Of a stretch of 64,000 bases of DNA, positions 43,706-59,636 are shown in pieces. Made by a program: the position numbers and the translations under genes. This stretch comes from Burkholderiaceae bacterium (GTDB lineage Bacteria; Pseudomonadota; Gammaproteobacteria; Burkholderiales; Burkholderiaceae_B). The notes beneath the pieces were generated by a model. The model was not told the origin of the DNA and did no database searches. It worked only from the letters and a program-made list of their open reading frames with translations. Position 1 is the first letter of the stretch; each line of letters begins with the position of its first letter. The stretch is from assembly GCA_017983955.1 (NCBI GenBank), contig JAGOAJ010000004.1:62001-126000 (forward strand), in the 5' to 3' direction.

Positions 43706-46345
43706 TTAAGTAGCGGCTGCGAACTCCAAAGGTTCCAAGGCGCGTAAACGTACGCCCTGTCGCCACCAGATCAACAGCAAAAGCATTAGTGCCGGGATAT
43801 ACGTCCAGAACTCCGAAGGACGTTCTGGATTGGGTATTTTAACCTCTGCAATATCCCAACCTTGCTCCCAACTGGAACGATAGGCCTGGCTGCCAAAACG
43901 TACACTGACAACCTGTGCCTGTTCACCCAGCATCATCACGGACAAACCCGCTCCCGACAGGCGCTGCATCGCTGCCGCATCACCCGTTGCCGTGCTGTCA
44001 ACAGGCAAGGCGGCAAGTGGTACAGCCACCGTTTTGACCAAATCATCGCCCTCCAGGTTCATGCCTTTAATCACCACCGTCAACCGACCTCCCGGTGGCA
44101 TGTCAGCCGCTATTTGCATAAGTTCAGAACCTGGGCGGGTTTCATACTTGGGCGCGACAAAGTTCATAAACCAGTCTGGCCGGAACAGCGCAAACGTAAT
44201 TGCAAACAGCAGTATGACTTCGGCCCATGAACACTTGACGCGCATCCAACGCATGGTGGCGGCGGCAAAGGTTAAAGATGCCAATGTCGCCCCTCCAACC
44301 ACAAGCAGGGTTTCAGCCCAGCCTTGTACGTCGATCAGCAACAACAAGGGATTGAAGACAAACATAAAGGGCAGGACCGCCGTGCGCATGGCGTAGGTTG
44401 TTCCCTGTATTCCGGTCTTGATGGGGTCTTCACCAGAGATCGCGGCCGCCGCAAAGGTTGCCAAGCCTACAGGCGGGGTAATGTCGGCCATGATCCCAAA
44501 ATAAAACACAAACATATGGACCGCAATTAACGGTATGACCAAGCCACTTTGGGCACCCAGTTCCACCACCACCGGAGCCATCAGCGTAGCCATCAGTATG
44601 TAGTTGGCAGTGGTAGGCATACCCAGCCCAAGTACCAAACACACGCCAGCGGTAAAGAACAGCATGACTAATACATTACCCATGGACACCAGTTCCACGA
44701 ATTCCGTCATGCGCCCGCCTAGGCCAGTCAGTGTGATGGCACCAACAATCAGGCCTGCCGTGCCACAAGCGATGGCAATGCCCACCATATTGCGTGCGCC
44801 TTCTTGTAAGCCCTTTACGGTTTCACTTAGCCCCTGACGAGTGGCGGACGCCACCTCTTGCTTGCGGAACCAGGCGATCAAGGGCCGCTGGGTCGCCATC
44901 TGCACCATCATGGACACCGCTGCCCAGAACGCCGACAAACCGGCGGACAGCATTTCTACGGTCAAACACCATACCAGGATGCCTATGGGAATCAGAAAAT
45001 AGAGACCCGCCCGTACCGTGGGCCAAGTTTCAGGCTTAACGGGATTGGTAATACTGATTTCTGTTGGCAGATCAGGATGGCTGGCAGCAATGCGTAACAG
45101 CCACACGTACAACACCACTAACAAGCTCGTCAGTATCCAAATGGCTGCGTCACCGGCTACCGACTGCACGCCCACACCTATCCAGTAAATAAGTCCGGAA
45201 ACAATAAGGGTGCCGGAAATACCCATGCCCCAGCCCGCTAGTTTTTGCAGGACGGTACGCGGCTTGCCCGCTGACATCATGGGTTGTATGCCCAACTTCA
45301 AGGCTTCGATGTGCACGATATAAAACAGTGCAATATACGAAATGGACGCTGGCAAGATCGCATGCCGGATAATATCGGTATAAGGTATGCCAACGTACTC
45401 TATCATCAGGAAGGCTGCCGCCCCCATCACCGGCGGCATAATCTGCCCGTTGACCGACGACGCGGTTTCTATGGCCCCAGCGCGTATGCCTCCGTAACCT
45501 GCCCGTTTCATCAAGGGTATGGTAAAAATGCCACCGGTAACCACGTTGGCCACCGACGAGGCTGACACTATGCCATTAACCGCGGATGAAACCACGGCGA
45601 CTTTGGCGGGACCGCCCCGCAAATGTCCTAGCAAGGCAAAAGAGACCTGCATCATGTAATTGCCTGCCCCGCACCTATCCAGCAAAGAGCCCAACAACAC
45701 AAAAATGAAAATATAAGAAACCGACACGCCCAGCGCGACGCCGTAGACACCCTCTGTGGTCAACCACATATGTGACATCAAGCGTTCAATGGAGGCGCCC
45801 CGATGCGCTAGGGCATCAGGCATCCAGGGCCCCAGCAAGGCATAGGCCACAAACACAGCGCCCAACACAGCCATAGGTGCGCCCAAAGCACGGCGCGTGA
45901 CTTCTAGCAGCAGTACTAGACCAGTGCAGGCCACCACAACGTCCATGGTTGTAGGTATGCCGGGACGTGTGGCCAACTGGTTGTAAAACAAATATAGATA
46001 GGCGCCACAAAAGCCACCAACCAGCGCCAACACCCAGTCGTACCAGGGCATAATGTCGCGCGGCGAGCTTTTGCGAGCTGGATAGGCCAGATAGCCCAGG
46101 AACATGGCAATACCCAAATGCAGGGCACGCGCTTCGGTATCGTTGAAGATACCCAGCCTAAGCGAAAATGGTAACGGCGAGGCGTACCAGAGCTGAAACA
46201 GAGACCATAACACCGCGCCAATAAATAGGACGGCGCCAGGAAAGCCACCGACCTCTCGACCACCGCGATCGACATCAGCGACCAGTTGTTCAAGGTTGGC
46301 GTTGGCTTCCTGCTGAGCAGCAGATAATGATGGGGATGTTGTCAT
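43706..46345 (-). CDS. TRAP transporter fused permease (4TM + 12TM) with C-terminal DUF3394
   Basis: A membrane protein joining the small (DctQ-like) and large (DctM-like) TRAP subunits in one chain. 879 residues: several N-terminal helices, then the large-subunit motifs [20 protein letters not shown] and [16 protein letters not shown]. After about residue 700 there is a C-terminal soluble part with a last helix near the end (LMLLLLIWW), fitting DUF3394. It pairs with the TAXI receptor upstream and is followed 10 bases later by kbl. Ligand unknown; context suggests an amino or keto acid. Confidence 0.9.
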
Positions 46346-46405: not shown

Positions 46406-47407
46406 TTACAACAGACCTTTTTCTTGATAGTACTTCTGAGCGCCAGGGTGTAATGGCGCAGACAAACCATTTTTAACCATGTCCTTGGCGTCCAGATGAC
46501 CTAATGCTGGGTGCAATTTTTTAAAGTCGTCGAAATTTTCGAAAACGGCTTTTACCACCAGATAGACAGTTTCATCAGGCACGTCAGCCGAAGTAACAAA
46601 GGTGGCTAACACACCATAAGTTGGCGTGTCATCAGGATTGTTAGCATACAGACCGCCAGGAATGCTGACTTTGGCGTAATAGGGGTACTGTTCAACCAGC
46701 TTATCCACTACGGGGCCGGTCAGGGGCGTGAGTTTGGCGCCACACGTGGTGGTGGGGTCCTGAATGTTGGCTGATGGGTGACCTACGCCATAGAAAAAGC
46801 CATCGATCTTGCCATCACACACGGCGGAACCGTGTTCATCGGGACGCAGTTCCGATGCCAACGAAAAGAAATCAAGGCCATCGCCACGGGCTTTAAGCAG
46901 TTGTTCCATAGAAGCACGCGTGCCTGAGCCGGGGTTGCCCACGTTGAAACGCTTACCTTTCAGGTCCTCGAAACTTTTAATATTGGCGTCTTTGCGTGTC
47001 ACCACAGTGAAGGGTTCGGGGTGCAAGGAAAACACCGAGCGAAGCTTTTCAAATTTGCCAGCCTCTTTGAACTGACCATCGCCGTTATAGGCGTTATAGC
47101 CAACGTCGGACTGAACCACGCCCAGATCTAATTCGCCCGCCTTGATCGTGTTGATGTTAAACACCGAACCACCCGTGGACTCTACCGAGCAACGCACACC
47201 ATGTTGAGCGCGGTCTTTATTGACCAAGCGACAAATAGCGCCACCGGCCGCGTAATACACGCCAGTTACGCCACCGGTGCCGATGCTAACAAACTTTTGC
47301 TGGGCCGCTGCCGGCAAGGGTGCAGCCATTACGGCAAACAGCGCGGTGGCGCTAGCCACAGCAGTCAGATATTTCTTATTGAACGGGTTTTTTAAGCGTT
47401 TTTGCAT
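46406..47407 (-). CDS. TAXI-family TRAP substrate-binding protein
   Basis: Periplasmic receptor of the fused TRAP permease. 333 residues from ATG 47407 (AGGAG about 10 bases upstream): signal peptide ending PLPAAAQQ, then [20 protein letters not shown] and the [13 protein letters not shown] region. TAXI receptors with fused permeases have been linked to glutamate or 2-oxoglutarate uptake in some bacteria, but the ligand here is not predictable. First gene of the run that ends with kbl-tdh. Confidence 0.9.
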
Positions 47408-47442
47408 AATTATTGTCTCCTGGGGGTTAGCCCTTATTGTTA

Positions 47443-47456
47443 CCAGTGGCCACTGG
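47443..47456. promoter_or_regulatory. 14-bp perfect palindrome upstream of the TAXI gene
   Basis: CCAGTGGCCACTGG lies 36 bases before the TAXI start codon. A second inverted repeat, CTATTAG and CTAATAG separated by 13 bases (47520-47546), lies further upstream in the same 285-base gap. Either could bind a dimeric regulator; no regulator gene is adjacent. The rest of the gap, to 47692, shows nothing I can name. Confidence 0.4.
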
Positions 47457-47692
47457 CAATCTCCTGGCAGCCATAAACTGAGTGCCAGCATCTATCTAAC
47501 CATCTACTTACCTAGACCGCTATTAGTACATTCCACACGCTAATAGGGTTATATGTCACTATTTTCAGCAAATCTCGAAACGAAAAGATACATTTAGAGT
47601 AAATTTGACTTTTTCTGGACCAATAACAGTATAGTTGTAATAATTCCGGCCTAATTCTGCCTGCTGACTTCAGTAAAAACCATTATTCCAAC

Positions 47693-50293
47693 ATGACTCT
47701 CTGGCGGCGCTACATCAGACAGTGCGTAAAACTCAGCTTACTGGCAGTGGTTTTACTTACTGGTCTACCTGCCAACACCGCTTGGGCTAACTCTCAGCCT
47801 GTCCGTGTGGGCACCTTTGACAACGCACCTAACTTGTTGCTGTCCGATGACGGGCGCCCTGCAGGCATATTGGGCGAAATCTTGCAGGAAATCGCCCGCC
47901 GTGAACAATGGCAACTAGAGGCTGTTCCATGCGAATGGCAGGAATGCATACACAAGCTGCAAACTGGCCAGATAGACCTGCTACCCGATGTGGCGTACAC
48001 CCCCGAGCGCGAATTCCTATACAGTTTTCACGAAGTTCCAGCCCTGCACAATTGGTCCCAGGTGTATGTTGCGCCCGGCACGGAAATACATTCTGTACTG
48101 GATATGGAGGGCAAGCGTGTCGTTGCATTAACGGCTTCCGTCCAATATATCTTCACTAAATCATTGCTAAGTAATTTTGGCGTCCAAGCAACCTTATTAG
48201 GTGTGCCTAACCAAGAAGACGCCTTTGCTCTGGTAAGCAACAGCCAAGCTGATGCCGTTGTGGCCAGCTATTACTATGGCGAGACCCATGCCTCACGCTA
48301 TGGCCTAACAGCCACCAGCCTGATGTACGAACCAACCCGTTCATTTTATGCCGCCAAGAAAAATCACAACCCACAGCTACTGGCCGCCATAGATAAGCAC
48401 CTGGCCGCCTGGCAAAGCGATCCTCAATCCATCTACTTCACTATTTTGCATCGCTGGGGCAAAGTGGCAACACCCAGCCCGATACCGCTGATGTTTTGGT
48501 GGGGCGTAGCCGCCTTGGTCGTATTGTTGTTGCTGGCACTAAGCATAGCCGCATTACTGAAAAACCAGGTTGCACGGCAAACACGCCATATCAAGGCCCG
48601 GGAAATATGGCTCAATACCGTACTGGAAAGCGTTGACGCCTTTATCTACATCAAAGACAAAAATTTCCGCTACAAATACTGCAATCAAAAAGCCACTGAT
48701 TTTCTAGGTCTACAACCCAGTGAAATGATAGGTCGCACCGACAGCGAAATATTTGTGGGTCACGCCAGGTTAGCAGGCATCGAAGAAAGCGACAGACGCA
48801 TCTTGGACAAGGGCGGTCGGGTAGTCACCGAGGACGGCGTGGTGTCCTTTGCCGAACGCAACGAAACCCGCTCACTGGTCACCGTCAAACTGCCTTTGTT
48901 GGATGCCAAGGGAAATATCAGCGGTATCTGCGGCATAGCCACAGACATCACTGAACTCAAAGCTGCCCGTGACACCGTGCATCAACTGGCCTATTACGAC
49001 CCTCTGACCAAGCTGCCCAACCGGCAACTGTTACTGGCTAAACTTGAACAGGCGCTGCAGGCGGCACAGGACAACAACTTTAGCTCGGCCGTGCTGTTTA
49101 TCGACCTAGACGATTTCAAAAAGCTCAATGATGCACGCGGCCACCTGACAGGCGACATCTTGCTGTGCCATGTGGGCGAGCGCCTGCAATATGTCATACG
49201 TAACAACGACACTGTCGCCCGTATTGGTGGCGATGAATTCGTCGTGCTGCTGACCCAGCTAGGGTCGAATCCCGACGCGGCCATCAACAAAGCCATGTAT
49301 GTCGCTGAAAAAATCCGTATTGCGCTGACCCAGCCCTTTCAGATTGATGGTCAGCCCTTCTGGTCAGGCGCCAGCATAGGCGTCACTATGCTCTACGGCG
49401 GAACAAAATCCACCGAAGACCTGCTGCGCGAGGCAGACACCGCCATGTACCGATCCAAGGCGGCCGGACGCAATCGGGTAACCTTGTACCTGACCAGCAT
49501 GCAAACCGAAACAGAAGAGCGCCTGTCCCTGGAACACGATATCGCCCAGGCAGTCAATGACGAACAATTTGAAATCTATATACAGCCACAATTCAATCCG
49601 GCTCGTGAGATTACCGGAGCCGAGCTGTTAATACGCTGGCGGCATCCAGAGCGCGGCATGGTCCCACCTAGCTTGTTTATCCCTGTGGCTGAACAGACCG
49701 GCGCCATCATACGCATAGGTGAATGGACACTGTATCAAGCCTGTAAAGCATTAATGATGCCCAGCATCGCCAGCGCCAGTTATCCACTGTCAATTAACGT
49801 CAGCCCCAACCAGTTCAACGAACCTAGCTTTGTGCAGAAGGTCAAACGTACCTTACTGGAAACAGGTGCACCAGGCCATAGACTAATTTTTGAAATTACG
49901 GAAGGTGTGCTGATACATAATCTGCAAGAAACCCTGCCGCGCATGGCCGACTTGGCAATGCTAGGCATACGTTTCTCGATTGATGACTTTGGCACCGGTT
50001 ATTCCAACTTAAGCAATCTGAAGCGCCTGCCCCTGTTCGAGCTGAAAATCGATCAAAGCCTTACCCAAGACACGCCACATGACCCCGACAGTACGGTCAT
50101 CGTTAAGTTGATACTGGCCATGGCCCAGCAACTAGGCATACAAGTCGTGGCCGAGGGTGTAGAGACCACTGAACAGGCCGAGTTCCTGATCGACCATGGC
50201 TGCCAGGCCCTGCAAGGCTATCTGTTCATGCGCCCCATGCCCCTAAGCGCATGGCCGCCTGAAGACCAAAAGCTACTGAGCAACCCACTTTAG
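47693..50293 (+). CDS. GGDEF/EAL cyclic-di-GMP protein with periplasmic binding-protein sensor and PAS
   Basis: 866 residues. Order: signal/anchor (LSLLAVVLLTGLPANTAWA), a periplasmic type-3 solute-binding domain (about 35-255), one membrane helix (LMFWWGVAALVVLLLLALS), PAS (about 300-420), GGDEF (about 430-600) and EAL (610-860). GGDEF is canonical (RIGGDEFVVLL) with the inhibitory I-site RNND five residues upstream. The EAL domain has AEL in place of EAL but keeps SINVSPNQF, FEITEG, IDDFGTGYSNL, LKIDQS and VVAEGVE, so hydrolysis is plausible. A small ligand in the periplasm probably sets cyclic-di-GMP output. Its stop overlaps that of the ZIP gene. Confidence 0.9.
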   Translation: MTLWRRYIRQCVKLSLLAVVLLTGLPANTAWANSQPVRVGTFDNAPNLLLSDDGRPAGILGEILQEIARREQWQLEAVPCEWQECIHKLQTGQIDLLPDVAYTPEREFLYSFHEVPALHNWSQVYVAPGTEIHSVLDMEGKRVVALTASVQYIFTKSLLSNFGVQATLLGVPNQEDAFALVSNSQADAVVASYYYGETHASRYGLTATSLMYEPTRSFYAAKKNHNPQLLAAIDKHLAAWQSDPQSIYFTILHRWGKVATPSPIPLMFWWGVAALVVLLLLALSIAALLKNQVARQTRHIKAREIWLNTVLESVDAFIYIKDKNFRYKYCNQKATDFLGLQPSEMIGRTDSEIFVGHARLAGIEESDRRILDKGGRVVTEDGVVSFAERNETRSLVTVKLPLLDAKGNISGICGIATDITELKAARDTVHQLAYYDPLTKLPNRQLLLAKLEQALQAAQDNNFSSAVLFIDLDDFKKLNDARGHLTGDILLCHVGERLQYVIRNNDTVARIGGDEFVVLLTQLGSNPDAAINKAMYVAEKIRIALTQPFQIDGQPFWSGASIGVTMLYGGTKSTEDLLREADTAMYRSKAAGRNRVTLYLTSMQTETEERLSLEHDIAQAVNDEQFEIYIQPQFNPAREITGAELLIRWRHPERGMVPPSLFIPVAEQTGAIIRIGEWTLYQACKALMMPSIASASYPLSINVSPNQFNEPSFVQKVKRTLLETGAPGHRLIFEITEGVLIHNLQETLPRMADLAMLGIRFSIDDFGTGYSNLSNLKRLPLFELKIDQSLTQDTPHDPDSTVIVKLILAMAQQLGIQVVAEGVETTEQAEFLIDHGCQALQGYLFMRPMPLSAWPPEDQKLLSNPL

Positions 50294-51153
50294 CCTAAGG
50301 CAGTATCCAACAACATCATCATGACAAAGCCTATCAATAGCCCACCAGTGGCGCTGGCCTCGTGACCCTGGCGGTGTGATTCCGGAATAATTTCATGGCT
50401 GACCACAAACAGCATGGCACCAGCCGCTGCCGCCAGTCCCCAAGGCAGCAAAGCAGCCGACATCCCTATCAAGGCGACTCCCAGCACAGCGGCCACGGGC
50501 TCAACCAAGCCGGACAATATGCCCACCGACACCGCCAGCCACTTGCTATAACCCACACCCATCAAGGCCAACGCCACCACCAACCCTTCAGGGATATCTT
50601 GTATCGCAATGCCAACCGTCAACGCCTGGGCACCCACCAAATCCGGCCCCGCAAAAGCCACACCTATCGCCAGGCCTTCCGGAAAATTATGCAAGGTAAT
50701 TGCCAGGACAAACAGCCACACCCGTTTAAGCTTTTTAGCCTGGCTGCCCTCGACGCCTTTGATGAAATGTTCGTGCGGCACCGCCCTGTCGATTAACAAT
50801 AAAAACAAGGCACCCAGCAAGATTCCAGCGCCAACAATCGCACCCGCCCCCCAGGGCCCTGCGCCCTGATCACGGGCGATGGCCAAACTAGGAATAACTA
50901 ATGAGAACGAGGTAGCGGCCAGCATGACGCCTGCACCAAAACCCAGCAAGGTGTCGTTAACCCGCTGCGACAGCCCACGCGTGACAATAGCGGGCACCGT
51001 ACCCAAAGCGGTCGCGGCGGCGGCTAGCAAGCCACCCCACAAAGCACCCTGCACATGCGGGTCATTGGCCAAGAGCCGAACATAAACATCGTTCAGCAAT
51101 AGGGCTATACCCACCAAGACAATGGTAAAACCTACCCAATAACGCATCGTCAT
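50290..51153 (-). CDS. ZIP-family divalent metal transporter (ZupT/GufA-like)
   Basis: A metal importer, probably for zinc, possibly iron or manganese. 287 residues and about 8 helices. The metal helices carry TLHNFPEGLAIGVAF and IAIQDIPEGLVVALAL, the paired H-N-x-P-E-G and Q-D-x-P-E-G motifs, and LFVVSHEIIPESHRQG. The stop overlaps the stop of the cyclic-di-GMP gene on the other strand. The possible start at ATG 51147 two codons later cannot be excluded. Confidence 0.92.
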   Translation of the reverse strand: MTMRYWVGFTIVLVGIALLLNDVYVRLLANDPHVQGALWGGLLAAAATALGTVPAIVTRGLSQRVNDTLLGFGAGVMLAATSFSLVIPSLAIARDQGAGPWGAGAIVGAGILLGALFLLLIDRAVPHEHFIKGVEGSQAKKLKRVWLFVLAITLHNFPEGLAIGVAFAGPDLVGAQALTVGIAIQDIPEGLVVALALMGVGYSKWLAVSVGILSGLVEPVAAVLGVALIGMSAALLPWGLAAAAGAMLFVVSHEIIPESHRQGHEASATGGLLIGFVMMMLLDTALG

Positions 51154-51303: not shown

Positions 51304-51846
51304 ATGTGGTCGTGGATACCCAAATACCGGCTGGCAGTAATCGCCACCGCCGTACTGATTAGCGGTTGCGCCAGCCTATCGCCAGAAGAATGTCGTACCG
51401 TGCAGTGGCACGAGCAAGGTATGCGCGATGGCCAAAATGGTCACCCGCGCGCGCGCGCAGACCAGCACCGCGAAGCCTGTGGAAAAGTTGGGGTCGCCCT
51501 GGACATGCAGCAATACGAAGCCGGACGGGCCATAGGCATACGCCGATATTGCACCCCGGAAAACGGTCTGCAAGCAGGACGGCTGGGGCGCTCTTACCAG
51601 AACTCTTGTCCGCCCGAACTGGAAGGTCCCTTTCTGGACAACTACCGTAGCGGCTACCGCGTCTACGAAGCCCAGCAATATGTAGAACGCCTGGACCGCG
51701 AACTTAGCAGCAAGGAATACAGTTTACGCAAGGCGAAAGACGACCGCGAACGTTCCAGGCTACGTTCCGACCTTAGGGATCTGGATCGCCGACTGCGCCA
51801 CGCCCGAGACGATGTTTACCAGGCGGAACGGCGTTTGCGTAATTAA
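51304..51846 (+). CDS. DUF2799 family lipoprotein
   Basis: A predicted lipoprotein of unknown function. 180 residues: signal with lipobox LISGC (Cys22), then the DUF2799 body with CRTVQWHEQGMRDGQNG, CGKVGVALDMQQYEAG and CTPENGLQAGRLG, three cysteine-starting repeats. The last 55 residues are a highly charged coiled coil (Arg, Glu, Asp; for example RSRLRSDLRDLDRRLRHA). It stands alone, convergent with the TSUP gene. Confidence 0.85.
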   Translation: MWSWIPKYRLAVIATAVLISGCASLSPEECRTVQWHEQGMRDGQNGHPRARADQHREACGKVGVALDMQQYEAGRAIGIRRYCTPENGLQAGRLGRSYQNSCPPELEGPFLDNYRSGYRVYEAQQYVERLDRELSSKEYSLRKAKDDRERSRLRSDLRDLDRRLRHARDDVYQAERRLRN

Positions 51847-51913
51847 ACTGCACCAGCTGTTTTCCAAGCGCCATTAGACTTTCGGCACGTAGCTGATCGC
51901 TGCAACGTACAGT

Positions 51914-52714
51914 TCAACCCAACAACATATAAATGCCGACAACAAAGACTGTCGTTGCGAACACCATGTTTAGTACGCCGCGTTTACTCGCAAGGCGCGT
52001 CGCAAGCTGCGCACCACCCCACCCCCCCATCACCCCGCCCGCTATAAACTCCAGAGCAATAGGCCAATCGACCAAACCAGATCGAGCATAGTTAAGTGCC
52101 GTTGTTAGTCCGAAGCTGCCAACACCAAACAATGACGTTCCAATAGCCTCAATAATCGGTAGCCGGGCAGATAGCATCAGTCCGGGAACGATAAGAAAGC
52201 CACCGCCGATACCGAAAAATCCTGCTAATGCCCCGGTGCCTATACCTGTACTCGATAGCCTCACTCCCAACTGTGCTGAAGAGGGCATCTGTATAGATGC
52301 ATCCACCGTTTGACGCGCACGGACCATAAAAATAGACATAATGATCATTAGCATTGCGAAGAGGCTGATCAAACGGCTCCCATCCATCAACTTTCCAAGT
52401 TGAGAGCCCGCCAAAGCCCCGACTATACCCATGCTGGTAAAAAGGAATGCCTTACGCCAATGCACATGTTTGGCACGTGCGTGAGGAATCAAGTTGACAT
52501 AAGCATTGATGGAAACAGCCAAAGCACTAGTGCCGATCACAAGATGGATGTTGTCCATGCCAACAACATAGATAAGTAATGGCACGGCGAGAATCGAGCC
52601 GCCGCCTCCCGTCAGTGCCAGTGCAAATCCCGTCACCCCGCCACAGGCAAGAACCAATGCATGAAAAGTCCATAGGCCTTCCATCACTGCCACCATGCTG
52701 GTGTTTGTAGTCAT
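51914..52714 (-). CDS. TSUP (TauE/SafE) family exporter, candidate sulfite exporter
   Basis: TSUP proteins move sulfur or organic anions; TauE, SafE and CuyZ are linked to sulfite or sulfoacetate export during sulfonate breakdown. 266 residues from ATG 52714 (a GTG one codon upstream is possible). About 8 helices; the repeated motifs are FALALTGGGGSILAVPLL and GALAGFFGIGGGFLIVPG. It is divergent from the TAXI-TRAP/lyase operon, and their promoters interlock. The sulfite role is inferred from the neighbours. Confidence 0.82.
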   Translation of the reverse strand: MTTNTSMVAVMEGLWTFHALVLACGGVTGFALALTGGGGSILAVPLLIYVVGMDNIHLVIGTSALAVSINAYVNLIPHARAKHVHWRKAFLFTSMGIVGALAGSQLGKLMDGSRLISLFAMLMIIMSIFMVRARQTVDASIQMPSSAQLGVRLSSTGIGTGALAGFFGIGGGFLIVPGLMLSARLPIIEAIGTSLFGVGSFGLTTALNYARSGLVDWPIALEFIAGGVMGGWGGAQLATRLASKRGVLNMVFATTVFVVGIYMLLG

Positions 52715-52759
52715 CACAGTTGCACGCCATATTTAAACTTTTGGTTATAAGCAAATAGC

Positions 52760-52788
52760 TTGACGTAATATACAGAGACAGTTATAAA
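52760..52788 (+). promoter_or_regulatory. Sigma-70 promoter of the TRAP/lyase operon
   Basis: TTGACG (52760-52765), a 17-base spacer, and TATAAA (52783-52788), a close match to consensus. The transcript would start near 52795, leaving about 128 bases of leader before TTG 52923, with two perfect inverted repeats. Confidence 0.6.
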
Positions 52789-52796
52789 CTTGTCAA
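52767..52796 (-). promoter_or_regulatory. Sigma-70 promoter of the TSUP exporter, interlocked with the opposite promoter
   Basis: On the minus strand TTGACA (52796-52791, perfect consensus), an 18-base spacer and TATATT (52772-52767). It occupies the same DNA as the rightward promoter, so two polymerases cannot bind together. The transcript would start near 52760, 46 bases before ATG 52714. Confidence 0.55.
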
Positions 52797-52800
52797 TCGA

Positions 52801-52844
52801 CCCATTTCAAAGAATCCTGCCCAGGAATGATTCTTTGAAATGGG
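52801..52844. promoter_or_regulatory. 16-bp perfect inverted repeat in the TRAP operon leader
   Basis: CCCATTTCAAAGAATC (52801-52816), a 12-base spacer and GATTCTTTGAAATGGG (52829-52844). It begins just after the predicted rightward transcription start and lies behind the leftward -35. It could be an operator for a dimeric regulator or an RNA stem; no U tract follows. Confidence 0.6.
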
Positions 52845-52865
52845 CTTGCTAAACATTAGCAAGCC
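52843..52865. promoter_or_regulatory. Second perfect inverted repeat in the TRAP operon leader
   Basis: GGCTTGCTAA, loop ACA, TTAGCAAGCC: a 10-bp stem sharing its first two bases with the end of the 16-bp repeat. In RNA the two stems could compete or stack. It ends 57 bases before the first codon. Confidence 0.55.
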
Positions 52866-52922
52866 AGCATTTCTATCGAATAACTAAACTAAAAATCAAC
52901 AACTAAATCACGGAGAAACAAC

Positions 52923-54794
52923 TTGGTCTCACAAAAAATTCAAGGCATGGGGGTTACGACGATAGCGGTTGTGTGGGGGATCTTCCAGCTGTATACCGCC
53001 TATGATCCGGTGCTTGACCCCATCCGCCTTGGCGCGGTACACCTAGCTTTTGCGTTGACCTTGGTGTTCATCCGTTTCCCACTGTTTTCAGGTCGTTTGA
53101 AAACTTTAGGCAACGTAATCAGTGCTGTCGAAATTGCACTTACGATAGCCACCACCATCTATATCTGCAAAGAAATATACGAGCTTTCATCTCGTATTGG
53201 CATGTTTGAGCCACTCGATACATTTTTTGGTTCATTGGCCATCATTCTTGTGCTCGACGGATGCCGTCGGGTCATGGGGCTGGGGCTGGTCTCGCTGGTG
53301 ATGGTCTTTCTGGCGTACGCGTACTGGGGCCACCTGATCCCCGGACTGGCCGGCCACGTCGAACTGAGCCACGACTATATTGTCAGTGAGCTTTTCATGG
53401 GCTCAAGCGGTATCTTCGGCACACCTATGATGGTTGCCGCATCTTACGTAATGTTGTTTGTGTTGTTTGGCACCTTCATGGAGGCAACCGAGGGAACTGA
53501 ACTACTGATGCGTGTAGCCCAAAGAGCAATGGGATGGGCACGTGGCGGCGCTGCAAAAATGGCGGTTTTAGTTAGTGGCCTTTTCGGTACGATTTCCGGT
53601 GCGTCGGTAGCAAACGTCGCCACGGTGGGTTCATTGACAATCCCCCTGATGCAACGCTCCGGATTCTCTGGAAAAGTTGCTGGTGGGATCGAAGCGGCTG
53701 CGTCTACAGGCGGGCAGATCATGCCACCTGTGATGGGCGCCGCCGCGTTTATTATGGCCGCCATGCTTGGTATTCCTTACTCCGACGTTGCCATGGGTGC
53801 CCTGATACCTGCTATTTTGTTTTATGTCAGTCTTCTCCTGGCTGTCGACTTGGAAGCCAAGCAACTAGACATCCGTGGTATTCCGGTTAAGGACTTGCCT
53901 AAGCTCAAATCGGTACCGTTACGATCCTGGATACTTCTGAGCCCTATTGCTGTCCTGGTTTACCTTTTAATGGTTGTGGGCATCAGCGCTACTTTGGCCG
54001 GTCTGTATGCCTTGCTGGCGACAGTTGCCGTGGGCGTCATTAGCTTAGGCTGGAAATTCCTGCCGCGTATGATAGGTGCCTTTCGTGCTGGGGCAGCGGC
54101 AATGCTACAGGTGTCGGTCGCCGTCGCTGCCGCTGGCATCATCATTGGGGTCATCAGTTCTACGGGGCTAGACAGCAAGTTTTCGACCATTATCCTGCAG
54201 GCCACGGAAGGCAACTTATTGCTTACTCTTATCGCTACGGCAGTTGCGGCCATCGTGCTAGGAATGGGCATGCCCACTGTAGGTGTCTACTTGATACTGG
54301 CGATACTTGTGGCGCCTGCCTTGGTCGACCTGGGTGTCACGCCGCTGGCTGCGCATATGTTCATCTTTTATTTCGGCATTATGTCGACCATCACCCCTCC
54401 AGTCGCTCTTAGCGCGTTTGCAGCAGCTGGAATTTCAGGGGCCAACCCGACAGCTACCGGATTCTATGCTTTCAAATTGGCGATTGCCGGATTTGTGATT
54501 CCCTTTCTTTTCGTTTATTCACCGAGCCTACTATTTGCCGATGGCGCGGGAGTCGATGTATTCAGGATTGCGGGCGCCACGCTGGCGATCATTGCCATGA
54601 CGATCGCCATGGCAGGCACTTGGTTCGTCACAATGTCACGCCTGGAGCGGCTCCTAACCGGATTGGGTGCAGTTCTGCTGATATTCCCTGAACGTACGTC
54701 CAGCATAGTGGCGATCGTTCTATTGGTTGCATTGTTTTTCTACCAAAAGCAGAAGGCGCGTCGAATGATAAATCAGACCGGCTTAGTGACTTAA
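52923..54794 (+). CDS. TRAP transporter fused permease (4TM + 12TM), TAXI type
   Basis: Permease of the second TAXI-TRAP importer. 623 residues from TTG 52923, with GGAG 7 bases upstream. It has DctQ-like helices in the first 130 residues, then the large-subunit motifs LFGTISGASVANVATVGS and [18 protein letters not shown], and later MGMPTVGVYLILAILVAP. It lacks the DUF3394 tail of the 879-residue paralogue in this window. First gene of a run with the receptor, dehydrogenase and lyase genes, so it probably imports the substrate of the lyase pathway. Confidence 0.9.
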   Translation: MVSQKIQGMGVTTIAVVWGIFQLYTAYDPVLDPIRLGAVHLAFALTLVFIRFPLFSGRLKTLGNVISAVEIALTIATTIYICKEIYELSSRIGMFEPLDTFFGSLAIILVLDGCRRVMGLGLVSLVMVFLAYAYWGHLIPGLAGHVELSHDYIVSELFMGSSGIFGTPMMVAASYVMLFVLFGTFMEATEGTELLMRVAQRAMGWARGGAAKMAVLVSGLFGTISGASVANVATVGSLTIPLMQRSGFSGKVAGGIEAAASTGGQIMPPVMGAAAFIMAAMLGIPYSDVAMGALIPAILFYVSLLLAVDLEAKQLDIRGIPVKDLPKLKSVPLRSWILLSPIAVLVYLLMVVGISATLAGLYALLATVAVGVISLGWKFLPRMIGAFRAGAAAMLQVSVAVAAAGIIIGVISSTGLDSKFSTIILQATEGNLLLTLIATAVAAIVLGMGMPTVGVYLILAILVAPALVDLGVTPLAAHMFIFYFGIMSTITPPVALSAFAAAGISGANPTATGFYAFKLAIAGFVIPFLFVYSPSLLFADGAGVDVFRIAGATLAIIAMTIAMAGTWFVTMSRLERLLTGLGAVLLIFPERTSSIVAIVLLVALFFYQKQKARRMINQTGLVT

Positions 54795-54836
54795 CGCTAA
54801 CAAAGAAGTGCTAATTAATAAATATTGGAGATGAAT

Positions 54837-55814
54837 ATGAAGACGGAGATATTTCACGGTAAGGCCGGCATACTCGCAAGTTCACTGCTGGCGCTTTCCA
54901 TGATGCTGTGCCAACCAACGGCAGAAGCGGCAAATCGCTATGCCTTCGCCACGGCTGGGCAAGGCGGCACCTATCACATTCTTGGTGCAGCCATCGCAGA
55001 CTTGATCAACAAAAATAGCGACAACATCCAACTAACGGCTACAGCGACCTCAGGAACTGCAGCAAACGTACCCCTGATTCATTCCGGGCAAATGAAAATG
55101 GGCTTTGGCAACTCCCCGTCAGACAAGGCGGCCGCCGATGGCTCGCCTCCCTTTAAAAAGCCATTTGATAACCTGCGCGTCATGATGATCGGTTATACAA
55201 ACCCGGGCGCTTTCATTGCGCGCGCTGACTCCGACATCAAAACAATTGAGGATTTCCGCGGCAAGCGGATTTCCATGCCTGTGGGTGCTCCTGCCACGAA
55301 GGTCATGCAAACCTTGCTCTCCGCATATGGCATGGAGGCTGGCAAAGACTACACCGCAATCCCAATCAACTTTGGGCAAGCCGTCGAAGCGCTACAGGAC
55401 CGACGTATCGACGTCTCTTTGCAGTGGGCCGCTCCGCCATCACCTGCAGTGTTGCAAATGGCAGAGCTATTCCCGATTCGGATTATTCCTATCGACAATG
55501 AAAAAGCCCTTGCAGCCGTTAAGGAAAAGTTGGGCGTTATTCCCTACACATTCAAGGCACAGGTCTATAAAGGCATTGATGAGCCTGTCGCGTCGATTGC
55601 CATGCAGCAAAGCTTCCTGGTCAATAAAGACGTGCCCAATGAGGATGTGCAAGAGTTCATCAGGTTGGTTACAGAGAATACTGCCACATTGGCAAAGTCG
55701 CATTCTGTTGGGGCAGAGCTGACTTTGGAAAATGCAGCACGTGCTCTGGACTATGAGTTACCACCGCATCCGGGCGCTGTGGAGTATTTCAAGGAAAAGG
55801 GCTTTTCCAAGTAA
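54837..55814 (+). CDS. TAXI-family TRAP substrate-binding protein, candidate sulfonate receptor
   Basis: Periplasmic receptor, 325 residues from ATG 54837 (TTGGAG 6 bases upstream; ATG 54831 two codons earlier lies directly on that site). Signal peptide ends PTAEAAN, then YAFATAGQGGTYHILGAAIA and TATATSGTAANVPLIHSG. Distant from the other TAXI protein at 46406. A C3 sulfonate ligand such as sulfolactate is inferred from the downstream lyase. Confidence 0.88.
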   Translation: MKTEIFHGKAGILASSLLALSMMLCQPTAEAANRYAFATAGQGGTYHILGAAIADLINKNSDNIQLTATATSGTAANVPLIHSGQMKMGFGNSPSDKAAADGSPPFKKPFDNLRVMMIGYTNPGAFIARADSDIKTIEDFRGKRISMPVGAPATKVMQTLLSAYGMEAGKDYTAIPINFGQAVEALQDRRIDVSLQWAAPPSPAVLQMAELFPIRIIPIDNEKALAAVKEKLGVIPYTFKAQVYKGIDEPVASIAMQQSFLVNKDVPNEDVQEFIRLVTENTATLAKSHSVGAELTLENAARALDYELPPHPGAVEYFKEKGFSK

Positions 55815-55919
55815 TAGACCACGCAATCCACCAAGTCATCGGCACGCGACTGATCAATGGATAGCAATCGGTTCTGATGACTCCAAATAAAATCTGACTA
55901 TTAAAAGAGCTAATAAATT

Positions 55920-56972
55920 ATGGAAAAAAACATATCGTATTCCGACCTAATCGAGATATGCGCCGCTGTTTTTAGAGCAGTGGGTGTGCCGTCCGATGTC
56001 GCCGAAGTCGTAGCGGAAAATCTGGCATATGGGGACCTGAGAGGCGTGAGCTCACATGGCGTTGTGCGAGTGCCAATCTATGTACGCAGGGTTGAGGAAG
56101 GAGTAATAGATCCGAATAGCCAAATTGTCGTGGAAAAAGAGAGTGGCAGCACATTACTCGTGGATGGTTCCAACAATTTTGGAGCGTACGTCGGCATTAG
56201 CGCTCTTAGATTAGGGATTAAAAAAGCTAAAGACCAAGGGGTATGTGCAATAGGCATCAAAGGATCTAATCATTACGGCTTGGGGGCCTATTATGCAGCT
56301 GAAGCCATAAAGCATGGGTGCTTGCTAATCGCCGCTTCTAATGCTCCTCAGACCATGGCTCCCGTTGGGGGCGTACGCCCATTTCTGGGAACGAACCCAC
56401 TGACCATTGGAGTGCCCACCAAGAATGGCGCACCATTCATGCTGGATATGGCAACTAGCGTGGTTGCTCGTGGCCGCATGATGGTCGCCGAAAAACAGGG
56501 CACACAAATCCCCAATGACTGGGCCATAGACACTGAGGGAAATCCGACCAGCGATCCGACGCTTGCACTTCAAGGATCTCTACTTCCGCTTGGCGGATTC
56601 AAGGGGTTTGGATTAGCTATGGCCCTTGATATCTTGTCAGGCGTTTTGACCGGCGCAGGTTACGGACCAAGCGTAAATAGCTTATACGAAGATTTCTCTA
56701 AGTCCCAAAACGTGGGGCACTTTTTTATTGTGGTGGATATTTCCAAGTTTATTGATATCAATGAATTTCAGGACAGGATGCAACACTACATTGATTTGCT
56801 CAAGAAAGAGCCAGTACATCAGGATACCACCGAGCTTTTTTATGCAGGCGAGCTAGAGCACAAGAAAGAGCAAAACTCACGTAAAGAAGGCATCGTTATC
56901 CCATCGCAGATCCGTGAAAGCCTGATGGCCCTTGCCCAGAAGTACGAGATAGATGTAGATGTATTGAACTAA
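55920..56972 (+). CDS. Malate/L-lactate/sulfolactate dehydrogenase family (ComC-like)
   Basis: An NAD(P)-dependent 2-hydroxyacid dehydrogenase of the Ldh2 family, which includes malate, ureidoglycolate and (R)-sulfolactate dehydrogenase (ComC). 350 residues. Family motifs: GVSSHGVVRVPIYV (catalytic histidine), GSNHYGLGAYYAAEAIKHG, FLGTNPLTIGVPT and GFKGFGLAMALDILSG. In Chromohalobacter salexigens ComC makes (R)-sulfolactate from sulfopyruvate for SuyAB; position before a SuyAB-like lyase suggests the same here. Malate, lactate or another 2-hydroxyacid is the alternative. A C-terminal tail (KKEQNSRKEG) is charged. Confidence 0.8.
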   Translation: MEKNISYSDLIEICAAVFRAVGVPSDVAEVVAENLAYGDLRGVSSHGVVRVPIYVRRVEEGVIDPNSQIVVEKESGSTLLVDGSNNFGAYVGISALRLGIKKAKDQGVCAIGIKGSNHYGLGAYYAAEAIKHGCLLIAASNAPQTMAPVGGVRPFLGTNPLTIGVPTKNGAPFMLDMATSVVARGRMMVAEKQGTQIPNDWAIDTEGNPTSDPTLALQGSLLPLGGFKGFGLAMALDILSGVLTGAGYGPSVNSLYEDFSKSQNVGHFFIVVDISKFIDINEFQDRMQHYIDLLKKEPVHQDTTELFYAGELEHKKEQNSRKEGIVIPSQIRESLMALAQKYEIDVDVLN

Positions 56973-57040
56973 TCAGCCTTTCTAAAAAACATTCCTTCTT
57001 TAATTAGATAAGTGAACCACTGATAACGGAGATAGTAGTT

Positions 57041-57295
57041 ATGAAAAAAGCAAGTGGGCGGGTGAGCATAATAGTCCACTGTAACGACAACGTAGCCACC
57101 CTGCTGGATAACGATGTCGATAGTGACCATCTTATAACCGGAATGGCATTGCAAACAGGGGTTGCAATGGGCCATAAGATCGCTCTAATTGATATCGCTA
57201 CCGGAGAGACAATTACCAAGTACGGCGTCACTATCGGTGTCGCAACACAACCAATATCAAAAGGAGACCACGTCCATGTTCACAACTGCGCCTAA
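57041..57295 (+). CDS. suyA: Lyase small subunit, SAF domain, candidate (2R)-sulfolactate sulfo-lyase alpha
   Basis: 84 residues forming one UxaA N-terminal SAF domain (IVHCNDNVATLL; ATGETITKYGVTIGVAT; ending HVHVHN). Two-gene members of this family are altronate or related hydro-lyases and SuyA/SuyB, which cleaves (R)-sulfolactate to pyruvate and sulfite. SuyA is about 8 kDa, which fits. The adjacent sulfite-type exporter and ComC-like dehydrogenase favour SuyA; no sugar-acid gene is near. It overlaps the next gene by 20 bases. Confidence 0.6.
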   Translation: MKKASGRVSIIVHCNDNVATLLDNDVDSDHLITGMALQTGVAMGHKIALIDIATGETITKYGVTIGVATQPISKGDHVHVHNCA

Positions 57296-58478
57296 ACAAA
57301 CTCAGCCTGTTCTCTCCGATGATTCGGGATGGTTTCAAGGATTTCACCGCGAAGATGGCTCGGTAGGTGTGCGCAATCATATGGTTGTGCTGTCCACTGT
57401 TGCGCTAACAAATAGATGGGCAGAGCTCGCCGCCGAAGAAAATACAGAGGCGTATGTTCTTTCTGGGGATTTTTTGCGTGGACTGCGTGGGGAAGATGCT
57501 GCAGTTCAGGACACCGTGTTGCGTACCTTTGTAACGCATCCCAACGTCGGGGCAACACTCATCTTATGTTTTGATCGTGTTAGTGGTAAAAGCTGGCGCG
57601 ACTGGGCCAAGAGCGTCGGTCGCCCCGTTGAAGTGTTGACCATGATAGAACAAGACGGCATGAGCGCGGCGGTACAGCATGCAAGGCAGGCACTGGCCCG
57701 ACTCGATACAGAACGTCAGAAGGCGAGCAGAAAGCCAGCTCCGTTATCTGCCCTGACTATAGCGCTTGAGTGTGGAGGTTCGGATGCGACAAGCGCCTTA
57801 TGTTCAAACCCTGCGGTGGGGCGATTCGTAGAGCGAGTCATTGACGCCGGAGGTACAGCGATTGTATCCGAGACTGCCGAGTTTATTGGTACCGAACCTA
57901 TCATCGAGCAACGGGCAGTGAATGATGATGTTCGTCGAAAAATCATCGAAAGCATTTCGAATGCCGATCAACGAATGCACGATGACAGCTCACGTTATAG
58001 AGGGATCAATCCTACAGCCGAAAATATCGAAGCCGGGCTTACGACCCTAGTTGAGAAATCCATGGGTGCGGTATGCAAAATCGGTGATTGCAAGCTTGAT
58101 GGTTGGTTAGCGTTTGGCGAAGCGGCAGGATCGCCTGGTATGTACTTTATGGACACTCCGTTTTTCAGCCCCATATCGCTCACTGGTATGGTGGCGGCCA
58201 GAGCTCAGATTGTCCTGTTCACCATAGGCGTGTTTAATCCTTCAGGAAATCCGATTGCCCCTACCATCAAAATATGCGGGAACTCGAATACTATAAAAAC
58301 GTGGCATGAGGCCATCGATCTCGATGTCTCGGCGGTTGTTTTCGGTTTAGAGACATTAGATGATTCAGCCGACCGCATCGAGGCATCTGTGATGAATGTG
58401 GCAAACGGAGCTGTAACGAAAAACGAGAGCCTGGGTGACGGTCAGATTATCATTCCAAAGACCTGCCCTCTAATCTAG
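57276..58478 (+). CDS. suyB: Lyase large subunit, UxaA family, candidate (2R)-sulfolactate sulfo-lyase beta
   Basis: The catalytic subunit, 400 residues from ATG 57276 (AAGGAG 9 bases upstream); an earlier in-frame ATG lies inside suyA. Family motifs: GFHREDGSVGVRNHMVV, LECGGSDATSALCSNPAVG, NIEAGLTTLVEKSMGA and FMDTPFFSPISLTGM. Where sugar-acid dehydratases read GRGSxFG and PSIKLATN, this protein has GVFNPSGNPIAPTIKICGN, so it is off the altronate/galactarate line. That, its size (SuyB is about 42 kDa) and its neighbours support a sulfo-lyase. Its exact substrate is unproven. Confidence 0.6.
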   Translation: MFTTAPKQTQPVLSDDSGWFQGFHREDGSVGVRNHMVVLSTVALTNRWAELAAEENTEAYVLSGDFLRGLRGEDAAVQDTVLRTFVTHPNVGATLILCFDRVSGKSWRDWAKSVGRPVEVLTMIEQDGMSAAVQHARQALARLDTERQKASRKPAPLSALTIALECGGSDATSALCSNPAVGRFVERVIDAGGTAIVSETAEFIGTEPIIEQRAVNDDVRRKIIESISNADQRMHDDSSRYRGINPTAENIEAGLTTLVEKSMGAVCKIGDCKLDGWLAFGEAAGSPGMYFMDTPFFSPISLTGMVAARAQIVLFTIGVFNPSGNPIAPTIKICGNSNTIKTWHEAIDLDVSAVVFGLETLDDSADRIEASVMNVANGAVTKNESLGDGQIIIPKTCPLI

Positions 58479-58480
58479 TT

Positions 58481-58517
58481 AAGTCGACAAAGCGCTAGAC
58501 GGGCGCGGCGTCGACTT
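58481..58517. terminator. Inverted repeat between converging lyase and rfbB genes
   Basis: AAGTCGAC (58481-58488) and GTCGACTT (58510-58517) flank 21 bases. It starts 3 bases after the suyB stop, is followed by TAATAATAA on the plus strand, and touches the rfbB stop. The large loop makes it a weak terminator at best; it also marks the right edge of the A+T-richer block. Confidence 0.35.
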
Positions 58518-59539
58518 TAATAATAACCCGCACGGCTCAGGCTCACGGACCGCCCCAAAAACCACCTGACCGTCTCCGCAATCCCTTCCTTAAACGTATG
58601 GGTCGCCCGCCAGCCCAGCTCCTGCTGGGCCTTACTGGCATCGATGGCGTAACGCAGATCATGGCCGGGACGGTCGCTAACATGAGTAATCAGATCACGG
58701 TAAGGCCGTCCAGGGGATGGGTGCAGTTCTTGTAAGACGTCGCAAATAGTCAGGACCACATCCATGTTGTGTTGCTGGTCGTGGCCGCCTAAGTTGTAGC
58801 TGGCCCCGACCACGCCTTTAGTCAGTACGGTGTACAGGCCCAAAGCGTGGTCTGCCACGTATAGCCAGTCGCGTACTTGCTGGCCGTTGCCATAGATGGG
58901 TATGGGCTGGCCGACCATGGCATTTAGTATGACGGTGGGGATTAGCTTTTCGGCATGCTGCCAAGGGCCGTAGTTGTTGGCGCAGTTGCTAATCACCACA
59001 GGCAGGCCATAGCTGCGATGCCAAGCACGCACTAGGTGGTCGGCGCTGGCTTTGCTGGCCGCATAGGGTGAACTGGGGGCGTAAGGGCTGGCTTCGGTGA
59101 ACAGCCCGGCGCTGTCGCCCAGGTCGCCATACACCTCGTCAGTGGATACATGGTGAAAGCGAAAGCTGGCCTGGCGCTGTGGCGATAGCTGCTGCCAGTA
59201 ACAACGACTGGCTTCCAATAAATGAAAGCTGCCCATGATGTTGGTGTTCATGAAGACGGCTGGACCGTGTAATGAACGGTCTACATGGGATTCGGCGGCC
59301 AGGTGCATGACGGCATCGGGTTGATGTTGCTGGAAAATACGGTCTAGCGAAGCACGGTCGCAGATGTCTGCTTGCTCGAATACATAACGGGGGTTTTGCG
59401 TGACGCTAGCGATAGCGGCCAGGTTGCTGGCGTAGGTCAGTTTGTCCAGGTTAACCACAGAGTCTGTTGTATGGTTAATAAGATGACGGACAACTGCTGA
59501 GCCAATAAAACCCGCGCCACCAGTGATCAGTATTTTCAT
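58517..59539 (-). CDS. rfbB: dTDP-glucose 4,6-dehydratase (orphan)
   Basis: It makes dTDP-4-keto-6-deoxyglucose, a precursor of rhamnose and other deoxysugars in surface polysaccharides. 340 residues from ATG 59539: dinucleotide loop [28 protein letters not shown], the T-D-E triad HVSTDEVYG and the Y-x-x-x-[15 protein letters not shown]. No rfbA, rfbC or rfbD gene is close. No ribosome binding site is seen; TATAAT lies 7 bases upstream. Confidence 0.93.
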
Positions 59540-59546
59540 GGGGGAA

Positions 59547-59552
59547 ATTATA
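59547..59552 (-). promoter_or_regulatory. Perfect TATAAT 7 bases before the rfbB start
   Basis: A -10 consensus ends 7 bases before ATG 59539, so initiation would occur at or next to the A of the start codon, giving a leaderless or nearly leaderless mRNA. The 17-base-spaced -35 is poor (TTAATG). Confidence 0.3.
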
Positions 59553-59636
59553 CTCAGCAACGGTGCCACCATTAACTACAACAGCAGCACCGCCAGATAC
59601 GACTCGCGGATCAAGCCCGCTATAGCTATAGATTAC

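Follow-up and report, generated by a model that had tools for sequence, protein, structure and literature searches.

Locus and gene content

We analyzed a window of 64,000 nucleotides (contig JAGOAJ010000004.1, positions 62,001 to 126,000) from the 3.32 Mb, 62-contig genome of a Burkholderiaceae bacterium, focusing on six genes at window positions 51914-58478. These encode a predicted importer, a dehydrogenase, a two-subunit lyase of the UxaA/GarD superfamily and a putative exporter. An initial annotation had proposed that they form a compact sulfolactate pathway, in which sulfopyruvate is reduced to (R)-sulfolactate by a ComC-like dehydrogenase, the C-S bond is cleaved by a SuyAB-type lyase, and sulfite is exported by a TSUP protein. 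Open frames and profile matches bear out all six genes and their families:

51914-52717, minus strand: TSUP (TauE/SafE) putative exporter (PF01925, 152.7 bits)
52923-54794, plus strand: fused TRAP permease of the DctQM type, TAXI-associated (DctM, PF06808, 268 bits; TRAP_fused, TIGR02123, 597.9 bits)
54825-55814, plus strand: TAXI solute receptor (NMT1_3, 200 bits; TRAP_TAXI, TIGR02122, 206.6 bits)
55920-56972, plus strand: Ldh2-family predicted NAD(P)-dependent 2-hydroxyacid dehydrogenase (Ldh_2, PF02615, 396 bits)
57041-57295, plus strand: SAF small lyase subunit of 84 residues, SuyA/UxaA-N-like (PF08666, 23.0 bits, cut-off 21)
57276-58478, plus strand: large lyase subunit, UxaA/GarD superfamily (GD_AH_second, 64.5 bits; GD_AH_C, 240.6 bits)

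The five plus-strand genes are spaced by 30, 105, 68 and -20 bases in gene order, and the TRAP permease gene is probably the first of an operon. The TSUP gene is divergent from the permease gene, with 205 bases between them. As the initial annotation stated, an SlcC-like dehydrogenase gene is absent, since no listed open frame within 51914-58478 is left over for one. The large subunit has two candidate starts, an ATG at 57276 with an AAGGAG stretch upstream and an earlier TTG at 57189.

The small subunit passes the SAF cut-off only narrowly. It resembles the small domain of altronate hydrolase (3k3s, 1.3e-12), also matches the GarD small domain, and is identical at 28 of 58 residues to a SuyA-type protein of Cupriavidus pinatubonensis. 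Together with the GD_AH matches, this agrees with the two-subunit UxaA-family lyase originally described. Such a build is not diagnostic of SuyAB because other two-subunit groups exist; a heteromeric L-fuconate dehydratase is mentioned, as unpublished data, by Watanabe et al. (PMC6336799).

Phylogeny and residue pattern of the large lyase subunit

The tree of large subunits comprised 82 of 129 collected frames; the 47 omitted were near copies, cut frames, extra members of sampled groups and two distant second frames. The SuyB reference comes from C. pinatubonensis plasmid p2, which carries a pair of UxaA-family genes in the vicinity of hpsN and hpsO; the SuyAB label derives from this neighborhood and is not used in the record itself. 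The label is supported by a Sinorhizobium mexicanum protein (L123) with 69% identity to the reference, as this species is counted among bacteria with SuyA, SuyB, SlcC and ComC homologues in PMC12421959. Among plasmids, 13 records held SuyB-type proteins at 62-100% identity, and the next matches were at 40%. No suyAB was annotated in the examined stretch of the R. pomeroyi megaplasmid.

The large subunit of the window is 32% identical to the SuyB reference. Together with 28 of 41 fetched close relatives it forms a clade of its own (100/100), separate from the SuyB clade of 15 rows (100/100). A branch with support 100/96 sets these two clades and five further rows, here called the sister group, apart from the other 33 rows. 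When the diagnostic columns described below and their neighbors were removed, and Escherichia coli UxaA was omitted, the 49 rows with Arg at the second diagnostic column still fell on one side (95/60), and the window and SuyB clades were again separate. In this reduced tree the division between Arg (49 rows) and Cys (30 rows) needs one change, with L092 and L129 having neither. The subunit falls neither with SuyB, the placement that would have borne out the initial annotation, nor with the sugar-acid dehydratases, a placement named there as contradicting the pathway; it belongs to a third clade instead. By its sequence, this clade is a third kind of lyase on SuyB's side of the superfamily, and we consider it highly probable that the enzyme represents a non-iron, SuyB-side subfamily.

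The residues agree with this division. Four alignment columns each hold Cys in all 10 fused UxaA/GarD-type rows, and in 21, 21, 21 and 23 of 23 further rows. The same columns hold Leu or Ile, Arg, a gap and Cys in SuyB (15/15), and Leu, Arg, a gap and Cys in the window protein and 28/28 of its relatives. Arg at the second column is thereby found in the window, all 28 relatives and all 15 SuyB rows, as well as in 5/5 sister-group rows. Watanabe et al. (PMC6336799) describe four Cys as conserved across the superfamily except in sulfolactate sulfo-lyase, and the four columns presumably correspond to these. Arg68 of the window protein replaces a predicted ligand Cys and might anchor either an anionic leaving group or a further acid group. 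Additionally, the dehydratase-marking Asp at column 482 and Arg at column 503 are absent. The window protein shares 69 of the 155 columns that are invariant in SuyB, and 77 of the 78 invariant in its own relatives.

An AlphaFold2 model of the large subunit (predicted local distance difference test score, pLDDT, 90.9) has GarD (6u7l) as its best PDB match, with TMq 0.77 and 24% identity. The lyase thus resembles the iron-dependent UxaA, GarD and D-arabinonate dehydratases in fold and domain order, but differs from them in lacking three of the four Cys and the Asp and Arg above, and in its side of the tree. An iron-type sugar-acid dehydratase was rejected on these grounds, as only one of the four Cys is present. 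SuyAB identity was likewise rejected. The likeness to SuyAB lies in the two subunits with SAF and GD_AH domains, the loss of three of four iron-ligand Cys, the Cys-to-Arg change, and a position often near an Ldh gene and in one fetched case near TSUP genes. The differences are the low identity, the separate clades, the lack of a nearby SlcC gene, an Ldh2 of another clade, and mismatches at 13 of 17 columns that discriminate between SuyB and dehydratases (a count made with L092, L129 and the sister group excluded).

According to record titles, the clade is found in Beta-, Alpha- and Gammaproteobacteria. Two of the loci, L047 and L054, are labelled Akkermansia muciniphila and Bordetella parapertussis; their lyases are nested among betaproteobacterial ones, and these metagenome-bin labels look doubtful. 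On a plasmid of the halophilic archaeon Haladaptatus (L129, 4992-7614), a small UxaA-family protein is encoded between two large-subunit-like proteins, and the first of these two lacks both Cys and Arg at the second diagnostic column.

Dehydrogenase and transporters

The relationships of the Ldh2 protein were examined in a tree of 15 proteins, which includes no assayed ComC and in which labels rest on neighborhood. The window protein groups with five Ldh from RraA clusters (95/96; 98/96 with L099 added). All five clusters contain RraA, an iron alcohol dehydrogenase and an aldehyde dehydrogenase, while a TRAP importer is found in four and a glycerate kinase in three. ComC-like proteins of three SuyAB clusters form a separate clade together with that of L053, and the window protein is about 31% identical to the one of Methylobacterium radiotolerans. 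Its best NCBIfam match is L-sulfolactate dehydrogenase (NF040650) at 303 bits, under the cut-off of 500. The window protein shares with ComC the Ldh_2 family of 2-hydroxyacid dehydrogenases, but it does not group with the ComC-like proteins, and the ComC identity put forward initially was therefore rejected. The Ldh of another SuyAB cluster (L041, genome G367) also lies apart from the M. radiotolerans-type clade; the Ldh of such clusters thus fall into more than one clade, and the grouping test is not absolute.

Exporters of two sulfur operons show 54.7-57.3% identity to the TSUP protein at a coverage of about 84%. The first, on Agrobacterium pAt3 (54.7%), lies beside Blh, BigR and YeeE genes in a blh-bigR operon, and the second, in a Paraburkholderia fungorum sulfur operon, has an MBL-fold gene as its neighbor. 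Agrobacterium reportedly excretes sulfite, and a TauE-related sulfite transporter is described as a product of the bigR operon (PMC5823870). The window gene differs from the bigR-operon exporter in being divergent from an importer operon, and no Blh, BigR or YeeE gene was recognised near it by eye. Against the TSUP encoded in the M. radiotolerans cluster it gives no match at 1e-3, and it is 51% identical to a TSUP encoded beside an orthologous lyase in Afipia birgiae (L050). Hence the proposed link to sulfite is upheld as far as domain and kinship go, and the protein probably exports sulfite or a related anion, transport being predicted from sequence.

The TAXI receptor lies beside a fused DctQM permease, as in the TAXI-TRAP systems of the VC0430 glutamate receptor and the Azoarcus phthalate importer (PMC11574862). 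This confirms an importer of the TAXI-TRAP type, unlike SlcHFG, which is of the tripartite tricarboxylate (TctABC) type. The receptor has matches to seven solved sequences, among them 1us4 and 8u79 (5e-30 to 1.5e-16; best 108 bits), and is thus only distantly related to solved TAXI receptors. Few ligands are known for this family, namely glutamate, phthalate and some acids to which a knockout pointed (PMC11574862).

Probable acquisition of the gene block

The search covered one further genome of the genus, that of the congener G001, in which aconitase stands directly before a lipoprotein gene (counterpart of window 51304-51846). The block 51847-59636 is missing, and no lyase match was found anywhere in that genome; the block was therefore gained here or lost there. 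It also includes an epimerase gene at 58517-59572, named by eye. The G+C content of the six genes (0.475-0.528) is lower than that of the window (0.551), which fits joint acquisition of the six, and the epimerase gene has 0.56. The six genes look like one acquired catabolic unit.

Neighborhoods of the lyase relatives

We collected 41 loci with an orthologous lyase (42-59% identity) and counted neighboring families with score limits of our own; several loci were cut short, and L062 and L063 are nearly identical. The SAF gene is present at 40 loci, and in L068 it lies about 3 kb away. Instead of sulfolactate genes, a GMC oxidoreductase is found at 33 of the 41, together with SsuA-like ABC receptors (24), MR_MLE enzymes (18), aldehyde dehydrogenases (13), DctP receptors (12) and choline-sulfatase-like genes (9; one representative with 616 bits, cut-off 433). 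An SlcC-like gene and a TAXI gene each occur at 1/41. The GMC, MR_MLE and aldehyde dehydrogenase neighbors fit a conversion of alcohol to acid followed by elimination, and are silent on whether the acid carries a sulfonate. The GMC representative scores best against choline dehydrogenase (525 of 605 bits, under cut-off), and an IseJ-like role is a candidate for these proteins, IseJ being a GMC enzyme. The MR_MLE representative matches talarate/galactarate dehydratase (94.9 of 500 bits) and arabinonate dehydratase (84.7 of 650) best, both far under cut-off.

A few of the loci give no more than hints. In L050, the sole TSUP case, the TSUP gene ends an array of aldehyde dehydrogenase, SAF, lyase, ABC and GMC genes. 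In L053, an Ldh with 47% identity to the M. radiotolerans ComC-like protein is encoded about 7.5 kb from the lyase, near genes that look tripartite tricarboxylate by eye. L075, L076, L078 and L080 encode a thiamine-diphosphate enzyme that shares 39-42% identity with one encoded in the M. radiotolerans cluster.

The sister group (L007, L008, L010, L037 and L128) has Arg at the second column in all five rows. One of its rows lies about 2.9 kb from a SuyAB cluster with a SuyB-type protein (61% to C. pinatubonensis) and an SlcC-like protein (59%). On the Variovorax sp. SRS16 plasmid (L128, 3515-8276), a two-subunit sister-group lyase is accompanied by a hydroxyacid dehydrogenase, an Ldh and a tripartite tricarboxylate receptor, in what looks like an SlcC/ComC-like pair around a non-SuyB lyase. 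These surroundings tie the Cys-poor side of the superfamily to sulfonate genes, by neighborhood alone. At L041 (7473-12973), a Cys-poor sister-group lyase is found close to a SuyAB cluster that includes SlcC-like and Ldh genes and a pair of NMT1-looking receptor genes.

No GMC match was found on the contig of the window. The nearest GMC protein of the genome (49% identical to that of L072) is encoded on a different contig, next to a gene that looks sulfatase-like by eye. A cluster in the same genome (L163, G000 C26:121000-140000), with names given mostly by eye, comprises GMC, sulfatase-like, GntR, SulP-like, GlcDEF-like, aldehyde dehydrogenase and Rieske-like genes, several of these families being ones seen beside the lyase in other genomes.

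Proposed function and alternatives

Our preferred interpretation, held tentatively, is that the locus may be a horizontally gained module for carboxylic acid uptake, 2-keto/2-hydroxy interconversion, iron-independent beta-elimination and sulfite export. Judging from its family, the TAXI-TRAP system would import an organic anion, and Ldh2 would use NAD(P)(H) to interconvert the 2-keto and 2-hydroxy forms of this anion. The residues suggest that the SAF/large-subunit lyase could then take the C2 proton of the 2-hydroxy acid and expel the C3 group, giving an enol and from this a 2-keto acid, without the rubredoxin-like iron site proposed for sugar-acid dehydratases. The most likely leaving group would be sulfite, exported by the divergent TSUP protein. 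That hydroxysulfonate cleavage and sulfite export are indeed coupled in this way is possible, though somewhat doubtful. The expected substrate is then a 2-hydroxy-3-sulfo acid that would either differ from the (R)-sulfolactate of SuyAB or be processed in another way, with (R)-sulfolactate itself being unlikely.

Several observations weigh against this interpretation. At the 17 separating columns, the window protein matches SuyB at 4 (two of which are one shared two-residue gap), dehydratases at 6 and neither at 7, and its clade is joined to SuyB across two long branches (0.92 and 1.15). The RraA, alcohol dehydrogenase, aldehyde dehydrogenase and glycerate kinase neighbors of the related Ldh suggest sugar-acid-like chemistry, and the gene for L099, a member of this Ldh clade, overlaps a dehydratase-side lyase pair at the end of the pair. 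TSUP and Ldh2 genes each occur at 1/41 lyase loci, and the single Ldh2 is also the sole ComC hit. The genome has nine TauE-family matches, eight over cut-off and the window's included, which makes the presence of a TSUP gene weak evidence. Xsc, of the sulfoacetaldehyde route, had no match over cut-off in the genome or its congener.

The alternative that survives best is an iron-free removal of water from a hydroxylated sugar-acid or small polyol-type acid, where the TSUP protein would export another anion or be a mere neighbor. This dehydratase route is a realistic though still doubtful candidate. The frequent GMC, MR_MLE and aldehyde dehydrogenase genes would fit alcohol to aldehyde to acid to dehydration, and both the MR_MLE scores and the neighbors of the Ldh2 relatives point the same way. 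The loss of three Cys and of the residues at columns 482 and 503 argues against it, as does the position of the clade outside the dehydratase side (100/96, more weakly at 95/60 in the reduced columns).

A bolder form of the sulfonate interpretation, which we regard as unlikely, is that the clade represents a novel class of C-S (or C-X) lyase ending a route for hydroxysulfonates of the 2,3-dihydroxypropane-1-sulfonate (DHPS) kind. The GMC oxidoreductase and aldehyde dehydrogenase would then turn such a hydroxysulfonate into a 2-hydroxy-3-sulfo acid, and the window would hold a stripped variant in which TAXI-TRAP, Ldh2 and the sulfite exporter replace the GMC and ABC parts.

The pathway of the initial annotation appears quite improbable as a whole, even though parts of it endure. 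The lyase is on SuyB's side and shares its Cys loss and Cys-to-Arg change, the TSUP protein is kin to sulfur-operon exporters, and the families are those of the M. radiotolerans SuyAB-type cluster (TSUP, two UxaA-family proteins, SlcC-like oxidoreductase and Ldh). The NF040650 match and the scattered Ldh of SuyAB clusters also leave it some room. The SuyB and ComC identities did not hold, however, and the unmatched SuyB columns, the missing SlcC, the lack of similarity between the two TSUP proteins and the GMC genes beside the relatives count further against it. Moreover, among 29 lyase loci of related genomes, which were read for only part of the matches, 14 (each a different genome) have a SuyB at 77-86% identity.

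It is very unlikely that the clade expels another charged group, e.g., sulfate from an O-sulfo hydroxy acid, or an amine: the choline-sulfatase-like genes, the choline dehydrogenase-like GMC score and the pairing of GMC and sulfatase-like genes elsewhere in the genome would suit it, but neither gene adjoins those of the window and the TSUP similarity favors sulfite over sulfate.

The UxaA/GarD superfamily has few characterised members, and most two-subunit members in the plasmid records examined are named simply UxaA family hydrolase. By their residue pattern, the sampled rows fall on two sides, one with the iron Cys and one, poor in Cys, that comprises SuyB, the small sister group and the unstudied clade; the pattern offers a testable rule for which members cleave C-S bonds. 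If the clade acts on sulfonates, it adds a sulfite-releasing step overlooked by SuyB searches; if it does not, it cautions against inferring sulfonate use from sets of Ldh2, UxaA and TauE genes.

Occurrence of the gene set and neighboring genes

Across 399 genomes of the order, with at most 5 candidates scored per genome, searches with Ldh2 (E<=1e-85) and the TAXI receptor (E<=1e-70) each matched the window's own genome as the sole one, leaving no receptor match in the 398 others. Neither these searches nor the 41 lyase loci, none of which has both Ldh2 and TAXI, gave a second copy of the exact gene set. A literature search at the level of titles and abstract openings gave none that names the combination.

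Adjoining the acquired block, and separate from it, is a ZIP-family-like metal transporter gene (by eye) at 50290-51153, which is also absent at that place in the congener. A second TAXI-TRAP system lies on the minus strand (by eye; permease 43706-46345, receptor 46406-47491) and, unlike the one of the locus, is present in G001.

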